Assembly (NCBI GenBank): GCA_026989095.1
Contig: JALSKA010000202.1
Span: 1-50,392 of the forward strand
Reading direction: 5' to 3'
Origin: Ardenticatenaceae bacterium
Lineage (GTDB): Bacteria; Chloroflexota; Anaerolineae; Ardenticatenales; Ardenticatenaceae
DNA length: 50,392 nt
The notes under the pieces are model-generated. The model saw only the letters and a program-made list of their open reading frames with translations. It was not told where the DNA came from and searched no databases. Shown here piece after piece: positions 32,976 to 41,546 of this stretch. Within the stretch, counting starts at the first letter, position 1, and every line of letters begins with the position of its first letter. A program made the translations under genes and the position numbers.

Positions 32976-33485
32976 TCAAGGCACATACCGCTCCACGCGG
33001 CCCGTGTCAGGGCACTCGGCCAGCAGGGCCACGGCCGTCTTGCCCAAGCGGGGGTGCCGCCACGCCGGCGCCACGTCCACGAGGGGCACCAGCACGAAAC
33101 GGCGCAGGTGGAGCCTGGGATGGGGCACTTCCACCAGGTGATCCCGGTAGACCAGGGCGCCGTAGGCCAAGATGTCCACGTCGATGGGGCGGGGCCCCCA
33201 GGGTTTCTCCTCCTCCCGCCGGCGGCCCAACTCCCGCTCCACGGCCTGCACGTAGGCCAACAGCTCGTGAAGGCTCAGGGACGTGTACCCCCGGCACACC
33301 TGGTTGAGAAACCAGGGCTGGTCGGGCTTCCCCCACGGCTCAGTGCGGTAGAGGGGCGAACAGGCCATCAACACCACCCGCCCGCCGGCCGCCAGGCGGA
33401 CACGGGCGCGGCGCAACAGCTCGGGGGAGTCGCCCAAGTTACTTCCCAAGCCGATCAGCACCTCGACGATCTCAGGGGGTGTCAC
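32976..33485 (-). CDS. folK: HPPK: 2-amino-4-hydroxy-6-hydroxymethyldihydropteridine diphosphokinase
   Basis: FolK pyrophosphorylates hydroxymethyl-dihydropterin in folate synthesis. The product is 169 aa, normal for the family. Motifs are LIGLGSNLGD at the N-terminus, SPLYRTEPWG, FLNQVCRG and the HPPK signature WGPRPIDVDILAYG, then VPHPRLHLRRFVLVPL. GTG 33485 has GAGGAG 6 nt upstream; a longer frame to 33752 runs into the upstream gene out of phase and is rejected. It lies 25 nt downstream of the NACHT-TPR-CNB gene on the same strand and may be co-transcribed. No other fol genes are in the window. Confidence 0.93.
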   Translation of the reverse strand: MTPPEIVEVLIGLGSNLGDSPELLRRARVRLAAGGRVVLMACSPLYRTEPWGKPDQPWFLNQVCRGYTSLSLHELLAYVQAVERELGRRREEEKPWGPRPIDVDILAYGALVYRDHLVEVPHPRLHLRRFVLVPLVDVAPAWRHPRLGKTAVALLAECPDTGRVERYVP

Positions 33486-33510
33486 TGGCGTCTCCTCGGC
33501 TCCTTCGTGG

Positions 33511-36411
33511 TCATCGCGGGCGCTGTCGGTGGCCGGGGAGGCGCTCAGTGTGGGTCTGCACCAGTGTGCTGGCCAAATCGGGGGCTTGGAGCCGAATGCG
33601 CTCCACGTCCTCTCGCCGCAGCACGAAGGCCCACACGTGGGTGGCAGCCCTGGCGGTGAAGGGATAAGTGCTCGGCTCCGGCAGCAGGGCAAGTTGTCCG
33701 AAAAAGGAGCCCGACTCAGCGCGGGCCGTGACCTCATGGTCCTCCCCGACAAACTCCACTTCGCCCTCCTGGATCACGAAAAAGCGGTCAGCCGGCTCCC
33801 CGCGGCGAACGATGATCTCGCCCGGCAGGAACATCTGGAACCGCAGGTGTCTGGCGAGCAGGGCGCGATGCTCCACCGAGAGGGATTGGAAGAGGGAGAT
33901 GCGGCTCAGCCGGTCGAACATTTTCGAGTGCTGGGCCGTGCGGATCAACTCCAGTTGGGTCTGGGCAGCCTCGTAGCCGGGGTTCAAGGTGAGCGCTTTG
34001 GTAAAGGCCCGGGCCGCCTCCTCGAATCTTCCCAACATCTTGTACGCCTGGCCCAGGTTATAGTAATGGTGGGGGTTGGTCGGCTCGAGCTGCACGGCGG
34101 CCTCGAAGACATAACAGGAGCGCTCGTAGTCCCCGCTCTCGAAGTAGGTGATGCCGAGCTGGTTGTAGGAATCCACGAAATCGGGCTGGAGGCGGATGGC
34201 CTCCCGCAGGGCGATGATGGCATACTCGTACTGGCCGATCTGGCGGTAGACGATGCCCATCTCGTAGGGCACGAAGATGAGCGTCTCGTCCAGGAGCAGG
34301 GCCTCCCAGAAATACGTCAACGCCCGCTCGTACAACCCCCGGTGTTCCAGGGCCAACCCACAACAGAACTTGAACACGGCCAGCCGGCGGAGGTCGTCGG
34401 CGAACGCCTCGGCCAACTGCTGCCAGACAGGGCTCTCGATGGCCACGCCGGCCAGGGCCTCGCCGGCGATCCACAGGCGGCGGTACTCGGCGCCATCTCC
34501 CACGATGTCGAGAAAGACGTCGGCCGGGTTCGCGCTAATGCCGAAGAAGAGCACGGCCGTGCCGGCCCAGTGAAGAGCATCGTGGGGGTCCTCGAAGTAG
34601 GCCACCATGCGCTCGCCCAGCTCCCGCAACTGAAAGGCGGCGAAATATTCCCGCACCGCCTGGTGCAAGAACTCCACCCGCTCCCGATCACCTGTCAGGC
34701 GCAGGAGCCCGCTGAAGAGCAGCCCCTCGAAAATGTCCTTGGCCGAAGCCTGGAGCGAGGCGGCAAAGGTGGCCTCGCGGATCAGCCAGTAACACTGCTC
34801 CCGGCTGATGGTCTCCAGGCGCTGATGCTGCATGGCCAGGGCCAAGTAGCCCAACACCTCGCGGGAGACGTCCACTTGCACCTTGGCCTTGCTCCGGCCG
34901 AAGATGCGCCACCACTCGGTCTCCGTGCGGCGCAACAGGCGCTCGGTGAACGCCTCGTACAGGAGCCCCCGGTTCTTCGGAAGGGTGACCTCCTCCTGCG
35001 TGTCCGCGATCTGGGTGAACATGAAGAGGAGAAGGGGCGAATGGGCCAACTGGCGCAGCTCCGGGTCGGCCAGAATCTCCTCGGCCAGACACGTGGCCCG
35101 CTCGCGGTCCAAGTACCGGGCGATGTAGAGCTCGATGTCGGCCTCGGAGAGGGGCTCCAAGAAGACGGGCAAAAAGCCCTCGACGGGCACGAAGTGCTCC
35201 GTGCGACAGGTGAGCACCACCTGGTGAACGGGGGAAATGTGGCGCAGGAAGCGGAAAAACTCCTCTTGGGCTTCCTCTGGAATTTCGTTGAGGCCGTCGA
35301 AGAGCAGCGCCAGGCGCACGGGCGGCGTGTGCTCGTCCAGCCGGGTGAGCTCCCCCCGGAGCAGCCGACACACATCCTCCTCGCTCACGTGTTCGATACC
35401 CCCGTGGTGCAGGGCCTCCATGACCAGCGCCTCGACCTGCTGGCGCCGGCGCACCAGGTTGAGCCGCACGAAGACCGGCAGCGTCACCGACGTTCCCCCC
35501 TCATCGCCGTTCAGGCGCTGCACCTCCCTGTTGGCCACGTAGTGGGTGTAGTAGCGCAGCACGGTCGTCTTGCCGGCTCCAGGGGCTCCCACCAACAAAA
35601 TCCGCTCGTGGTGCGTCAAGTAGTAGAGCACAGGGGCCGTGGCCACGCGCGCCCACACGATGTCCTCGTCGGCCCAGCGCCGGGTGGACAGGCGAGTGCC
35701 CTCCCACTGGTCGGTCTTGGACGGCACCCCCCACCCGGCCTCCAGAGCGCGCAACTGGCTGCCCCGCAGGGGCACGAAGAGCTCCTCCCAGATGGAAAAC
35801 TCCGGCAAGTGGGCCACGGTGGCCAAATAGCGGTGGACTGGGGGGCGCTCAGGCGCGTGGTCATCCTCCTCCTGGGCGTCGAACTGGAAGAGCATCCCCT
35901 TCCAGGACCAGAAGTCCGGCGCCTCGGCTGCCATCTTCTGGATGAAATCGCTCGTCCCCCAGAGGACGATGGGCTGCTTGATGATCGTCGTGCCGTCGCG
36001 GAACAAGTTGAGAAAGTGGAGGAACTTCTCCTGCTGCTCCTCGGTGTACGCCTCGAACCCGTAGACGAAGAGCACAATGTTTCGGTACCGCCCCACGAGC
36101 TCCAAGTCCTTGAAGCCGGGGCTGTCGGTCAAGTCGCGCAACACCCGGACCAAGTTCAGGTCATTCTCGCTCACCTTGATGGGGTAGAGGTAGATATCGT
36201 GTTCGGCAAAGCGCTGCTTGAAGTACCGGAACAGGCGCTTGCGGAGCTCGACGTTGTTGCACTCGACCGTCGCAATCCCCCCCAAACGGCTCAGGCGCAC
36301 CAGGGTGAGGAGCAACTGAATCTGTTCGCCGTATTTGGCCTCCACGTCCGCGAAGGAGGAGGCCGGAGCTGGGTCCATCATCCACTCCTGAAGGGCACAC
36401 ATGAAGCTCAC
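33511..36411 (-). CDS. Multidomain signalling NTPase: degenerate STAND - NACHT - TPR - cyclic-nucleotide-binding domain
   Basis: The product is 966 aa. Residues ~20-190 look like a STAND-type core without Walker A (IVLFVYGFEAY, then IVLWGTSDF and APDFWSW), i.e. probably inactive. Residues ~250-560 are a NACHT NTPase: GAPGAGKTT (K281), LLFDGLNEIP (D372) and a VVLTCRTEHF sensor. Residues ~690-825 hold three to four TPR units (YEMGIVYRQIGQYEYAI, YNQLGITYFESGDYERS, YYNLGQAYKMLGRFEEA). Residues ~837-950 are a cyclic-nucleotide-binding domain (FLPGEIIVRRGEPADRFFVIQEGEVEFV). In its phosphate cassette the usual Glu is Gln (Q906), and about six extra residues precede R921, so ligand binding is uncertain. 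It overlaps the upstream ATPase gene by 4 nt. The architecture suggests a ligand-gated scaffold; defence or stress signalling is inference. Confidence 0.85.
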   Translation of the reverse strand: MSFMCALQEWMMDPAPASSFADVEAKYGEQIQLLLTLVRLSRLGGIATVECNNVELRKRLFRYFKQRFAEHDIYLYPIKVSENDLNLVRVLRDLTDSPGFKDLELVGRYRNIVLFVYGFEAYTEEQQEKFLHFLNLFRDGTTIIKQPIVLWGTSDFIQKMAAEAPDFWSWKGMLFQFDAQEEDDHAPERPPVHRYLATVAHLPEFSIWEELFVPLRGSQLRALEAGWGVPSKTDQWEGTRLSTRRWADEDIVWARVATAPVLYYLTHHERILLVGAPGAGKTTVLRYYTHYVANREVQRLNGDEGGTSVTLPVFVRLNLVRRRQQVEALVMEALHHGGIEHVSEEDVCRLLRGELTRLDEHTPPVRLALLFDGLNEIPEEAQEEFFRFLRHISPVHQVVLTCRTEHFVPVEGFLPVFLEPLSEADIELYIARYLDRERATCLAEEILADPELRQLAHSPLLLFMFTQIADTQEEVTLPKNRGLLYEAFTERLLRRTETEWWRIFGRSKAKVQVDVSREVLGYLALAMQHQRLETISREQCYWLIREATFAASLQASAKDIFEGLLFSGLLRLTGDRERVEFLHQAVREYFAAFQLRELGERMVAYFEDPHDALHWAGTAVLFFGISANPADVFLDIVGDGAEYRRLWIAGEALAGVAIESPVWQQLAEAFADDLRRLAVFKFCCGLALEHRGLYERALTYFWEALLLDETLIFVPYEMGIVYRQIGQYEYAIIALREAIRLQPDFVDSYNQLGITYFESGDYERSCYVFEAAVQLEPTNPHHYYNLGQAYKMLGRFEEAARAFTKALTLNPGYEAAQTQLELIRTAQHSKMFDRLSRISLFQSLSVEHRALLARHLRFQMFLPGEIIVRRGEPADRFFVIQEGEVEFVGEDHEVTARAESGSFFGQLALLPEPSTYPFTARAATHVWAFVLRREDVERIRLQAPDLASTLVQTHTERLPGHRQRPR

Positions 36412-37739
36412 ACGTCTACCGGAATGGGCTCACGCTCGGCGATGAGGCGCTGCACGATGGGGTGAACGTCATACCAATAATCGCCGTTGACGTATTCCAA
36501 CACGCAGAGGGACTGCAGGTACTCCCACACCTGCTCGCTGTCCTCGCAGTCCTTGGTGAGGTGAATGCGCTTGAGGCGCACGTAGTCCGAGCGGGTGAGC
36601 CGGCGGCTGAAATCGCGCTTGAACTCGTTGATCACCCACTCGAGCACATCGTGGGTAATCACCTCGTGCCCGAAGGTGGCACAGTAAAGACACGCATCCT
36701 GCACCATCTTGATCAGGTGGCGCACCACGCCGCCCGACGCCTTGGCCATCTCCTCCACCACCCCGTCCTCGAAGAGCTCCGGGGCCACCCGGCGGTAGAC
36801 CAGCTCCATCATCTTGTGAATGTCGGGCTCGTACAGGCCCTTCTCCGGACACCGGTGCATCACCTTGAACATGGGGACAGGATAACTGCGGTAGGGGCCG
36901 AAGCTGGGGCTCTCCCCCAGCTCGTACATGAGGGAGACCGGCGCGGTGTAGATGGCCATGCAGCTCAGGAGGGTGAGAAAGGGGCCGTCATCGCGGAAGA
37001 CGCGCAGGGCCTCCCGCTTGGGCAGCTTGTCCAAGTCGTCGATCACCAGCAGCACGTTCATGCCGCTGATCTCCTTGAGGCGGTCGAGCAGGGTGTTCAC
37101 CAAGTGGCGCAACTCCGGCGCCCGCTTCTTGACCCGGTAGCGCACCTCCGTGCCGAAGCGGGCACCTCCTCGGACCCGAATGCCCAACACGTTGAGAAAG
37201 CTGAGGAGCTTGGGGAGGCCGAGATCGGTGCCTACCTCCACCTCGCCGCCCAACGTGGTGGTGGCGAAGCGCTCCACCTCCCGGCTGATCCACTCGGTAA
37301 TCTCCCGGATGTGCTCCTGCGGAAAGCTCAGGTCGAGCCGCTCCAGCCGGTTGTACACGCCGATCACGATGGAAAAGGCGATGTCCGTGTAATCCACGTC
37401 CTGCAAGTCGAGGATCTCGTTGACCGAGTAGGGCACCACGAAGAGGCGCTCCCGCAGCGTCGCGTCGGCCTCGATCTCCTTGACCGAGCGGTTCAACTCC
37501 GTGCTCTTCCCGCACCCCACGTGGCCGGAGACGATGAACTTCGTGTCCAGCTCCCGCTCGGCCCCCCACAACAGCTCCTGCTTGAGCAACTCCAGGCGGG
37601 AATCGTGATCCTGACGTGCCACGTAAAAGGCATCCAGTTGCTCGCCCTCCAGGGGAATGCGGTAGTCGGTGTTGGCGTAAGCGTCCACGAAGTTCGTCGC
37701 AGCCCGCGGATACCGGGGCCAGTCCACACGTATCGCCAT
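36408..37739 (-). CDS. AAA/STAND-type P-loop ATPase partner
   Basis: The product is 443 aa from ATG 37739 (GGGAGGG upstream). Walker A is GHVGCGKST (K78), followed by ELNRSVKEIE; Walker B is LLVIDDLDKLP (D234/D235). A winged-helix-like region near the C-terminus (~370-440) includes LQSLCVLEYVNGDYWYDVHPIVQRL. The 'GxGKSTEL' P-loop is typical of uncharacterised STAND/Orc-like ATPases that occur beside larger signalling NTPases. No transmembrane segment or nuclease motif is visible. It is the first gene of the cassette, and its stop overlaps the ATG of the NACHT-TPR-CNB gene, indicating tight co-production and probably a complex. The function is unknown. Confidence 0.8.
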   Translation of the reverse strand: MAIRVDWPRYPRAATNFVDAYANTDYRIPLEGEQLDAFYVARQDHDSRLELLKQELLWGAERELDTKFIVSGHVGCGKSTELNRSVKEIEADATLRERLFVVPYSVNEILDLQDVDYTDIAFSIVIGVYNRLERLDLSFPQEHIREITEWISREVERFATTTLGGEVEVGTDLGLPKLLSFLNVLGIRVRGGARFGTEVRYRVKKRAPELRHLVNTLLDRLKEISGMNVLLVIDDLDKLPKREALRVFRDDGPFLTLLSCMAIYTAPVSLMYELGESPSFGPYRSYPVPMFKVMHRCPEKGLYEPDIHKMMELVYRRVAPELFEDGVVEEMAKASGGVVRHLIKMVQDACLYCATFGHEVITHDVLEWVINEFKRDFSRRLTRSDYVRLKRIHLTKDCEDSEQVWEYLQSLCVLEYVNGDYWYDVHPIVQRLIAEREPIPVDV

Positions 37740-37895: not shown

Positions 37896-37924
37896 ATGAT
37901 AAAGGATGTGAGCAACGATGTCAA
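37896..37924 (-). promoter_or_regulatory. Promoter of the NTPase cassette
   Basis: On the minus strand: TTGACA (37924-37919), 17 nt, TATCAT (37901-37896), giving eleven of twelve consensus bases. Predicted start is near 37889, leaving a ~150-nt leader before ATG 37739. An 8-bp inverted repeat (ATGATAAA 37896-37903 with TTTATCAT 37939-37946) brackets the promoter. Confidence 0.72.
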
Positions 37925-39494: not shown

Positions 39495-40474
39495 GCGCCC
39501 GCCGGCTGCGCGTGGGCACGCGGGGCAGCGCCCTCGCCTTGGCCCAAGCCCGCGGCGTGATCAATGCCCTCCGCGCCGCGGAGCCCGGGCTGGCCGTGGA
39601 GGAAGTGATCGTGCGCACCTCGGGCGACCGCTCCACGGCCCCGCTGAGGGAGATCGGAGGGCAGGGCGCCTTCACGCGGGAGCTGGAGCAGGCCCTCCTC
39701 GACGGCCACGTGGACGTGGCCGTCCACTCCCTCAAGGACTTGCCCTCCACCTTGCCCGAGGGCCTGTGCCTGGCCGCCACCCCCCCGCGCGAGGACCCGC
39801 GCGACGTGCTGGTGACGCGGGCCGGCGTCGGCCTGGGCTCCCTGCCCGCCGGCGCCCGCGTGGGCACGGGCAGCCTGCGCCGGCGGGCCCAGCTCCTGGC
39901 CGTGCGCCCTGACCTCCGCGTGGCCAACATCCGGGGCAACGTGGACACCCGCCTGCGCAAGCTCCAGGCCGGCGCCTACGACGCCCTGGTGGTGGCCGCC
40001 GCCGGCCTGCGCCGGCTGGGCCGGGCCGACCTGGTTGCCCGCCACGCCCTTCCACTGGAGCTGATGCTCCCGGCCCCGGCCCAGGGCATCCTCGGCCTCG
40101 AGTGCCGGGCCGACGACCCGGAGACCGCGGCCCTGCTCCGCCGGCTCAACCACGCGCCCACCTTCGCGGCCGCCCAGGCCGAACGGGCCCTGCTGCGCCG
40201 CCTGGGCGCCGGGTGTCGCCTGCCCGTGGCCGCCCTGGCGACGGTGGAGGCCGAACGGCTCACCCTGCGGGCCCGCGTCCTGGGCTTCGAGGGCTCCCCG
40301 GTCATCGAAGTGGCCCTCACCGGCACCCCCATCGAGGCCGAGGCCGTGGGCACCGCCGCGGCCGAGCGCCTGTTGGCCCAGGGGGCGGCCACCCTGCTCT
40401 CCTGCGCCGCCGGCCACGCGCCCCCGAACGCCCTTCGCGGTTCCCCCCAATCAGAGGAGGACGACCATGCCTGA
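39491..40474 (+). CDS. hemC: Porphobilinogen deaminase (hydroxymethylbilane synthase)
   Basis: HemC links four porphobilinogen units into hydroxymethylbilane on a dipyrromethane cofactor. The product is 327 aa. Visible are GTRGSALALAQA, VHSLKDLPS (catalytic Asp), GTGSLRRRAQL and IRGNVDTRLRKL. The cofactor-binding Cys is in LGAGCRLPVAAL at C242, the same number as in E. coli. A ~35-residue Ala-rich, then Pro/acidic tail is longer than usual. The start overlaps the hemA stop (ATGA), and its end overlaps the radical SAM gene by 8 nt. Confidence 0.96.
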   Translation: MSARRLRVGTRGSALALAQARGVINALRAAEPGLAVEEVIVRTSGDRSTAPLREIGGQGAFTRELEQALLDGHVDVAVHSLKDLPSTLPEGLCLAATPPREDPRDVLVTRAGVGLGSLPAGARVGTGSLRRRAQLLAVRPDLRVANIRGNVDTRLRKLQAGAYDALVVAAAGLRRLGRADLVARHALPLELMLPAPAQGILGLECRADDPETAALLRRLNHAPTFAAAQAERALLRRLGAGCRLPVAALATVEAERLTLRARVLGFEGSPVIEVALTGTPIEAEAVGTAAAERLLAQGAATLLSCAAGHAPPNALRGSPQSEEDDHA

Positions 40475-41546
40475 ACACCGCTTCGCCAACGCGCCGTTGC
40501 TGGTCTACTGGGAAGTCACGCGGGCCTGTGACCTCGCCTGCCGGCACTGCCGCGCCGAGGCCATGCCGGCCCGCCACCCCGATGAGCTCACCGCCGAGGA
40601 GGGGTTCCGGCTCCTCGAGGCCCTGGCCGCCTTCCGGCCGCGGCCCCACATCGTCTTCACGGGCGGCGACCCCCTCAAGCGGCCCGACCTCTTCGCCTGG
40701 ATCGAGCGGGCTGTGGCCTTGGGCTTCCGCACGGCCATCACGCCCAGCGGCACCTACGCCCTCACGCGCGATGTGGTCCGCCGCTTCAAGGCCGCCGGCA
40801 TCTGGATGATGGCCCTCAGCCTGGACGGCTCCACGGCCGAACGCCACGACGCCATCCGGCAGGTGCCCGGCAGCTTCGACCAGACCATGCGGGCCATCCG
40901 CTGGGCCCAGGAGATCGGCCTGCCCCTCCAGATCAACACCCTGGTCTGCGCGGAGACCTACGACGACGTGCCCGCCGTCGGGCGCCTCCTGGCCGAGCTG
41001 GGCGTCGCCCGGTGGAGCGTCTTCTTCCTGGTGCCCACGGGGCGGGGGCGGGTGCTGGGCGACATCTCCCCCCACCAGGCCGAGGTGCTCCTGACGTGGC
41101 TCTACGACTTCAGCCGCACCGCGCCCTTCGACATCAAGACCACCGAGGCCCACCACTACCGCCGCATCGCCCTCCAGCGCTCCGGTCGCCGGGATCAGGC
41201 CGAGAAGGAACAGTTGGCCGTGGTGCGCCGGGGGTTCACCATCCGCGACGGGGCCGGCATCATGTTCATCTCCCACGTGGGGGAGATCTACCCGGCCGGC
41301 TTCCTGCCCATTCCCGTGGGCAACGTGCGCACCCACGATCCGGTGGCCGTCTACCGGCGCGATCCTCTCTTCGTGGCCCTGCGCGACCCGGACCGCTTCC
41401 GCGGCAAGTGTGGCCTCTGCGAGTACCGCGTCGTCTGCGGGGGCTCCCGGGCACGCGCCTACGCGCTCACCGGCGACCCCCTCGAAAGTGACCCGCTGTG
41501 CCCGTATCAACCGCCAGCGTGGCTGGAAAGGAGTGCAGTCGCATGA
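40467..41546 (+). CDS. Radical SAM / SPASM-type protein, AhbD-NirJ-like, in the haem operon
   Basis: The product is 359 aa. The SAM-binding cluster Cys-x3-Cys-x2-Cys is at C21, C25 and C28 ([11 protein letters not shown]), with TGGDPL as the glycine-rich SAM contact. The C-terminus has a SPASM-like cysteine set (C315, C318, C324, C345) for an auxiliary FeS cluster. This layout is shared by AhbD, which decarboxylates Fe-coproporphyrin III to haem without oxygen, by NirJ (haem d1) and by the TIGR04053 group. Its place inside a haem operon supports a role in haem formation. GAGGAGG lies just before the ATG. Whether it is a true AhbD or a relative with another task cannot be settled by reading. 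Confidence 0.85.

Follow-up and report, generated by a model that had tools for sequence, protein, structure and literature searches.

Organization of the locus

The window, a 50,392-nucleotide stretch of contig JALSKA010000202.1 from a genome that places near Ardenticatena (Chloroflexota), carries a pair of overlapping open reading frames to which an earlier note, made from the letters of the sequence, had drawn attention. The two frames, their coordinates, the motifs GHVGCGKST and IDDLDK, and the 4-nt GTGA overlap were all recovered as described there, on the minus strand. The main features of the locus are the following.

36408..37739, minus strand: gene 1, a 443-aa STAND/ORC-Cdc6-type AAA+ ATPase with a C-terminal winged helix
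33511..36411, minus strand: gene 2, a 966-aa partner with a P-loop-less N-domain, NACHT, TPR and CNB
36408..36411, minus strand: overlap of gene 1 and gene 2, GTGA, 4 nt, containing stop and start
37896..37924, minus strand: promoter-like element TTGACA-17-TATCAT, 11/12 match

A spacing of -4 between the two genes is also seen in four related genomes (G002, G004, G005 and G014). The promoter-like element, previously called near-consensus, is matched in G002, the nearest relative and a member of the same genus, which aligns TTGACA...TATTAT, the -35 being identical and the -10 nearly identical to those of the window. The pair is flanked by folK and hemA and lies within a heme gene region, its neighbours comprising folK, hemA, hemC, hemB, hemE and hemL. 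As the note had remarked, no nuclease, protease or pore is visible in the pair itself. The folK gene (window 32976-33490) comes directly after the 966-aa gene and was not found at the same spot in G002, the flanks being otherwise syntenic. Inside the hemA-hemC-hemB-hemE cluster we also observed a radical SAM/SPASM protein of TIGR04053 (window 40467-41546), whose score for AhbD (heme b synthase) is strong but below cut-off.

Gene 1 is predicted to be an active ORC/Cdc6-STAND ATPase

Pfam returned only weak AAA matches for gene 1, while DAP3, NACHT and KAP families recur below cut-off across the gene 1 family. The following motifs were located in the protein.

37500..37526, minus strand: Walker A, GHVGCGKST, residues 72-80
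37026..37043, minus strand: Walker B, IDDLDK, residues 233-238
36720..36734, minus strand: GGxxR, residues 336-340, a putative sensor-2-like motif

In an alignment of 58 homologues, the residues of Walker A, Walker B, GGxxR and the winged helix are near-invariant; G72, G75, G77, K78 and T80 of Walker A do not vary at all, and within GGxxR, G337 is kept in 58/58 and R340 in 57/58 homologues. The AF2 model of gene 1 (pLDDT 89) finds its fold matches in ORC/Cdc6, TnsC and CED-4 (Foldseek E 2e-7), and in the VIA comparison it aligns with 7jgr (Z 17.3, rmsd 3.0, 246 aligned) and with CED-4 4m9s (Z 14.5, rmsd 5.1, 289 aligned). Combining Walker A, Walker B, a GGxxR-like sensor 2 and a C-terminal winged helix, gene 1 has the attributes of a STAND/ORC-Cdc6 AAA+ protein, and its motifs and predicted fold point to a member of the ORC/Cdc6-STAND clade that looks active. 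In G129, gene 1 seemed to be fused to an N-terminal extension of 1040 aa; this candidate was rejected because it looks like an open reading frame read-through, Pfam having found no domain ahead of the position where the ATPase itself starts.

Gene 2 joins a P-loop-less N-domain to NACHT, TPR and CNB

Six features were delimited in gene 2.

35860..36363, minus strand: N-domain, residues about 17-184, the hallmark of the family
34612..35664, minus strand: NACHT module with helical arm, about residues 250-600
35563..35589, minus strand: NACHT P-loop, GAPGAGKTT, residues 275-283
33937..34374, minus strand: TPR array, residues 680-825
33538..33924, minus strand: CNB domain, residues 830-958
33646..33702, minus strand: degenerate phosphate-binding cassette FGQLALLPEPSTYPFTARA, residues 904-922, with Glu changed to Gln and Arg lost

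This domain content agrees with the earlier reading of the protein, NACHT being the part for which the orthologues had to be consulted: PF05729 scored 20.4 bits in window gene 2, below the cut-off of 26.7, and 28.2-34.2 bits, above it, in five orthologues. As both the P-loop and a DGLNE motif are in place and orthologues score above cut-off, gene 2 counts as a NACHT protein, and its NACHT-type Foldseek match is NLRC4. Pfam TPR matches occur at about residues 715-825, and CNB (PF00027) was detected at residues 861-939 with 59 bits against a cut-off of 27.5; the CNB domain aligns with 3mdp (Z 18.7, rmsd 2.1, 132 aligned).

In the AF2 model of gene 2 (pLDDT 88, pTM 0.76), the N-domain shows an alternation of helices and strands, with five predicted strands. 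It has no P-loop and is marked by the motifs LNxxRD and APDFWxW[RK]. No Pfam family matched this domain, a PDB profile search returned nothing credible, its profile comparison with gene 1 was not significant (probability 2.8%), and the matches of a VIA search with the whole gene 2 model were filled by TPR chains. From its topology, its position and the published precedent for inactive STAND partners (PMC8195603, PMC12839542), we infer that the N-domain may be an 'inactive STAND' domain.

The pair forms a widespread family under purifying selection

A scan of GTDB genomes yielded at least 541 loci related to gene 1, from which 80 named loci were kept. A gene encoding the N-domain lies directly downstream of the gene 1 homologue in 79 of these 80, a count that is not fully independent, as some named loci are themselves records of the G-handle genomes and close species repeat. 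The N-domain profile matched only 6 other open reading frames among the 7383 scanned; as this profile was partly built from the same loci, the analysis was repeated with half of them held out, giving 39/40 and 39/40 (78/80). The two genes mostly overlap, and their distance matrices correlate (Mantel r 0.48, with 0/2000 permutations as high). Hosts include Chloroflexota, Cyanobacteria, ANME archaea, Acidobacteriota, Deltaproteobacteria and Lachnospiraceae (Clostridia), among others, and outside the Chloroflexota subfamily defined below the partner usually consists of just the N-domain with TPR or WD40 repeats. The proposals that this is a true two-gene cassette, that a degenerate P-loop-less domain is paired in it with an active STAND-type ATPase, and that it is conserved across Chloroflexota and Cyanobacteria come out of these counts strengthened.

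At the level of the class, the cassette was found in 89/396, a broad and sporadic distribution, and within the order in 4/4 high-quality genomes (6/7 in all). Between the window and its congeners G002 and G001, gene 1 has a dN/dS of 0.05-0.09 and gene 2 as a whole one of 0.09-0.19; substitutions are strongly purifying, and since the values are low in both genes the cassette is retained in the window genus. For the CNB domain dN/dS is 0.07 against G002 and 0.26 against G001, the latter being the highest among the domains, so that CNB is the most changed part between the window and G001. The 79/80 adjacency together with purifying selection makes the pair more than a chance neighbourhood.

Several loci of the collection display unusual surroundings. 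A plasmid of Nostoc sp. C057 (L201:4051-9224) bears the succession VMAP, MoxR and a SAV_2336-type protein with a gene-1-family ATPase at its C-terminus; this operon is a conflict system of the MoxR-vWA type (PMC7159879) that recruited the gene 1 family, and it is the only locus where such neighbours were seen. On the Acaryochloris plasmid pREC1 (L202:2645-13113), described as a conjugative plasmid, a gene-1/N-domain-WD40 pair sits between two tyrosine recombinases together with HicAB and a NACHT gene, and this region is probably a mobile island. Upstream of the gene-1 homologue in L064, L069, L073, L085, L094, L112, L119 and L123 lies a gene for an MraZ-like protein, often accompanied by a NarL/LuxR response regulator; the resulting four-gene arrangement is recurrent, chiefly in Chloroflexota (Anaerolineales) cassettes.

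The cyclic-nucleotide module is present in relatives and lost in the window genus

Orthologues with a gene 1 identity of at least 37% were taken as the Chloroflexota subfamily. Here the partner is enlarged: it has gained NACHT, a CNB domain in one or two copies and, at its C-terminus, a domain resembling class III cyclases (PF00211, above cut-off in the cyclase-carrying relatives), enzymes marked by two metal Asp and by a Lys, an Asn and an Arg. A deep clade shows the order N-domain, CNB, NACHT, TPR, CNB, cyclase; its CNB cassettes are canonical (FGEIAL..PRTA), and most members have the cyclase motifs GDIHGST, KSLGD and VNxxxKL, with the metal Asp, Lys and Asn kept and Arg changed to Lys. In four genomes (G004, G005, G014 and G462) the partner has a single CNB, which is canonical, and in its cyclase Lys is changed to Gln and Asn to Val/Ile; the cyclase of G006 has lost one metal Asp. 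The fused cyclase is missing from all three copies of the window genus (the window, G001 and G002), and a search of the window protein and its flank detected neither PF00211 nor a downstream remnant. In the gene 1 tree the three cyclase-less copies form one group (99/99) adjoining G004/G005, in agreement with a single loss of the cyclase in the window genus; whether two CNB domains became one, or one became two, is not fixed by a root in these tree data.

Cyclic nucleotides are bound by the Glu and the Arg of the CNB phosphate-binding cassette. Both the window and G002 have Gln in place of this Glu and have lost the Arg, whose position in the window is taken by Ser or Tyr depending on the register; G001 keeps the Glu and misses the Arg. 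We propose from these changes that the CNB of the window genus is now a structural or non-canonical domain, left after decay of the cyclic-nucleotide module, and gating by a cyclic nucleotide seems plausible in those relatives that have canonical cassettes and a cyclase.

Comparison with known systems

Among published systems, the nSTAND2 two-gene operon (Kaur et al. 2021, PMC8195603, Fig. 6C) comes closest, and we liken it to the window pair by description. It combines a STAND NTPase whose nucleotide-binding motifs are intact with a second in which they are eroded, the putative counterpart of the N-domain; the inactive partner bears variable fused modules, and both systems have relatives towards DAP3/ORC within STAND, gene 1 giving weak DAP3 matches. 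The nSTAND2 partners most commonly carry GT4 or HEPN effectors (PMC8195603), whereas the window protein and the Pfam-scanned partners have neither, displaying TPR, WD40 or NACHT-TPR-CNB-cyclase instead. The earlier statement that no characterised system has such an order stands within the literature searched, where a full-text search combining NACHT, TPR, CNB, cyclase and Chloroflexi found no paper, but it has to be tempered by the existence of this close published relative.

The gene 2 N-domain also resembles the iSTAND of MoxR-vWA ternary systems and that of BrxB/BrxF, a proposed sensor, in being P-loop-less, in its five strands and in having no C-terminal helical bundle (PMC7159879, PMC12839542). 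Unlike in the MoxR-vWA systems, no MoxR or vWA gene was found among the neighbours of the window pair, and the N-domain stands apart from Pfam families. Bacterial NACHT (bNACHT) antiphage proteins and NLRC4, which are single-gene proteins, share with gene 2 a NACHT with an arm and a repeat sensor; the pair differs from them in its near-constant neighbouring ATPase gene and in the P-loop-less N-domain that replaces an N-terminal effector. The cyclase and CNB of the relatives recall the cNMP cyclase/cNMPBD conflict modules (PMC7159879) and Pycsar, with the difference that here both are joined to NACHT in one polypeptide, and that in the window they are lost or broken.

Proposed mechanism and alternative explanations

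Taken together, we regard it as slightly more probable than not that the pair is an ATP-dependent two-protein STAND/inactive-STAND switch of the kind found in conflict systems. Gene 1 would be the active ATPase of this switch and the N-domain its dedicated partner, probably docked next to it within a ring or filament built of both proteins and contributing residues in trans. In the Chloroflexota subfamily, the partner would have gained its own NACHT switch, a TPR recognition arm, and CNB plus cyclase as a cyclic-nucleotide module. A cue met through TPR/NACHT or through gene 1 may lead to an ATP-loaded gene 1/N-domain assembly, which could let NACHT oligomerise and recruit an output that is encoded by a separate gene. 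The module has decayed in the window genus, the cyclase being deleted and the CNB pocket broken. The domain logic is that of the NLR/APAF1-type switches, whose sensors the TPR or WD40 arrays of the partners resemble. A bolder and rather doubtful extension is that the Chloroflexota subfamily represents a new NLR-like receptor making and reading its own cyclic nucleotide, with inactive STAND, CNB, NACHT, TPR, second CNB and class III cyclase in one polypeptide that is driven by an ORC-like ATPase of its own, the window genus being a naturally occurring variant that has lost the signal and whose NACHT switch is nucleotide-independent.

The earlier note had the CNB domain read a cyclic nucleotide and thereby gate NACHT oligomerisation. 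For the window protein, binding of cAMP, cGMP or a related nucleotide to this end is improbable, because the Arg and Glu of the cassette are lost and the cyclase that relatives co-encode is gone; the elevated CNB dN/dS against G001 and the Arg-less cassette of that genome also speak against it, even though the domain is folded and under constraint, relatives combine canonical FGEIALL..PRTA cassettes with a fused cyclase, and the source genome has seven class III cyclase matches. The same losses could be read as those of a relic, the whole cassette being on its way out of the window genus, and the cyclase and CNB motifs, which erode step by step along the tree, would agree with this. However, each of the three copies in the genus is full-length and has its Walker motifs intact, both genes evolve at a dN/dS of 0.05-0.2, with CNB included in the comparison with G002, and the promoter is conserved in G002, which largely refutes the idea and makes it very improbable.

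A serious but less than probable alternative is that the pair is a switch in ordinary regulation or signalling, for instance in transcription control linked to stress or development, and plays no part in immunity. The linkage of Anaerolineales cassettes to MraZ-like proteins and NarL-type response regulators suits such a function, as do the resemblance of gene 1, with its winged helix, to the DNA-binding ORC/TnsC ATPases and the chromosomal position of the window copy beside core genes; retention of the window pair in every high-quality genome of the order and its heme-gene neighbourhood are unlike a patchy defence system. Phage records gave no match to the cassette and plasmid matches were few. 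PADLOC, run on the window proteins, gave only weak partial matches and no known defence protein, the weak Pycsar matches coming only from the CNB part, and when applied to 137 proteins flanking the 80 cassettes, without control loci, it returned for the most part regulators and ATPases of a generic kind, together with a few isolated matches that looked defence-like. Against purely regulatory signalling stand the gene-1 homologue fused into a VMAP-MoxR operon, the integrase-flanked plasmid copies, the broad but sporadic occurrence in the class, and the NLR-like architecture, and we lean slightly towards a conflict-type (immune-like) role of the pair.

The pair defines a two-gene STAND family of bacteria and archaea that is large and for the most part lacks a name, and whose P-loop-less partner domain lies outside the Pfam models. 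One subfamily has an NLR-like NACHT-TPR receptor fused to domains for cyclic-nucleotide binding and synthesis, an arm that one lineage has lost. This series of complete, degenerate and lost forms allows the use of a second messenger in cis by a bacterial NLR-like protein, as well as the role of the inactive STAND domain, to be tested, and the most interesting members are the relatives that keep both CNB domains and the cyclase.

The source genome (G000) also harbors a second, distant cassette on contig C22 (L039:2681-4588). Directly upstream of it, on the same strand, lies a DUF5939 class III cyclase gene in which the metal Asp, Lys and Asn motifs are present and Arg is changed to Lys.
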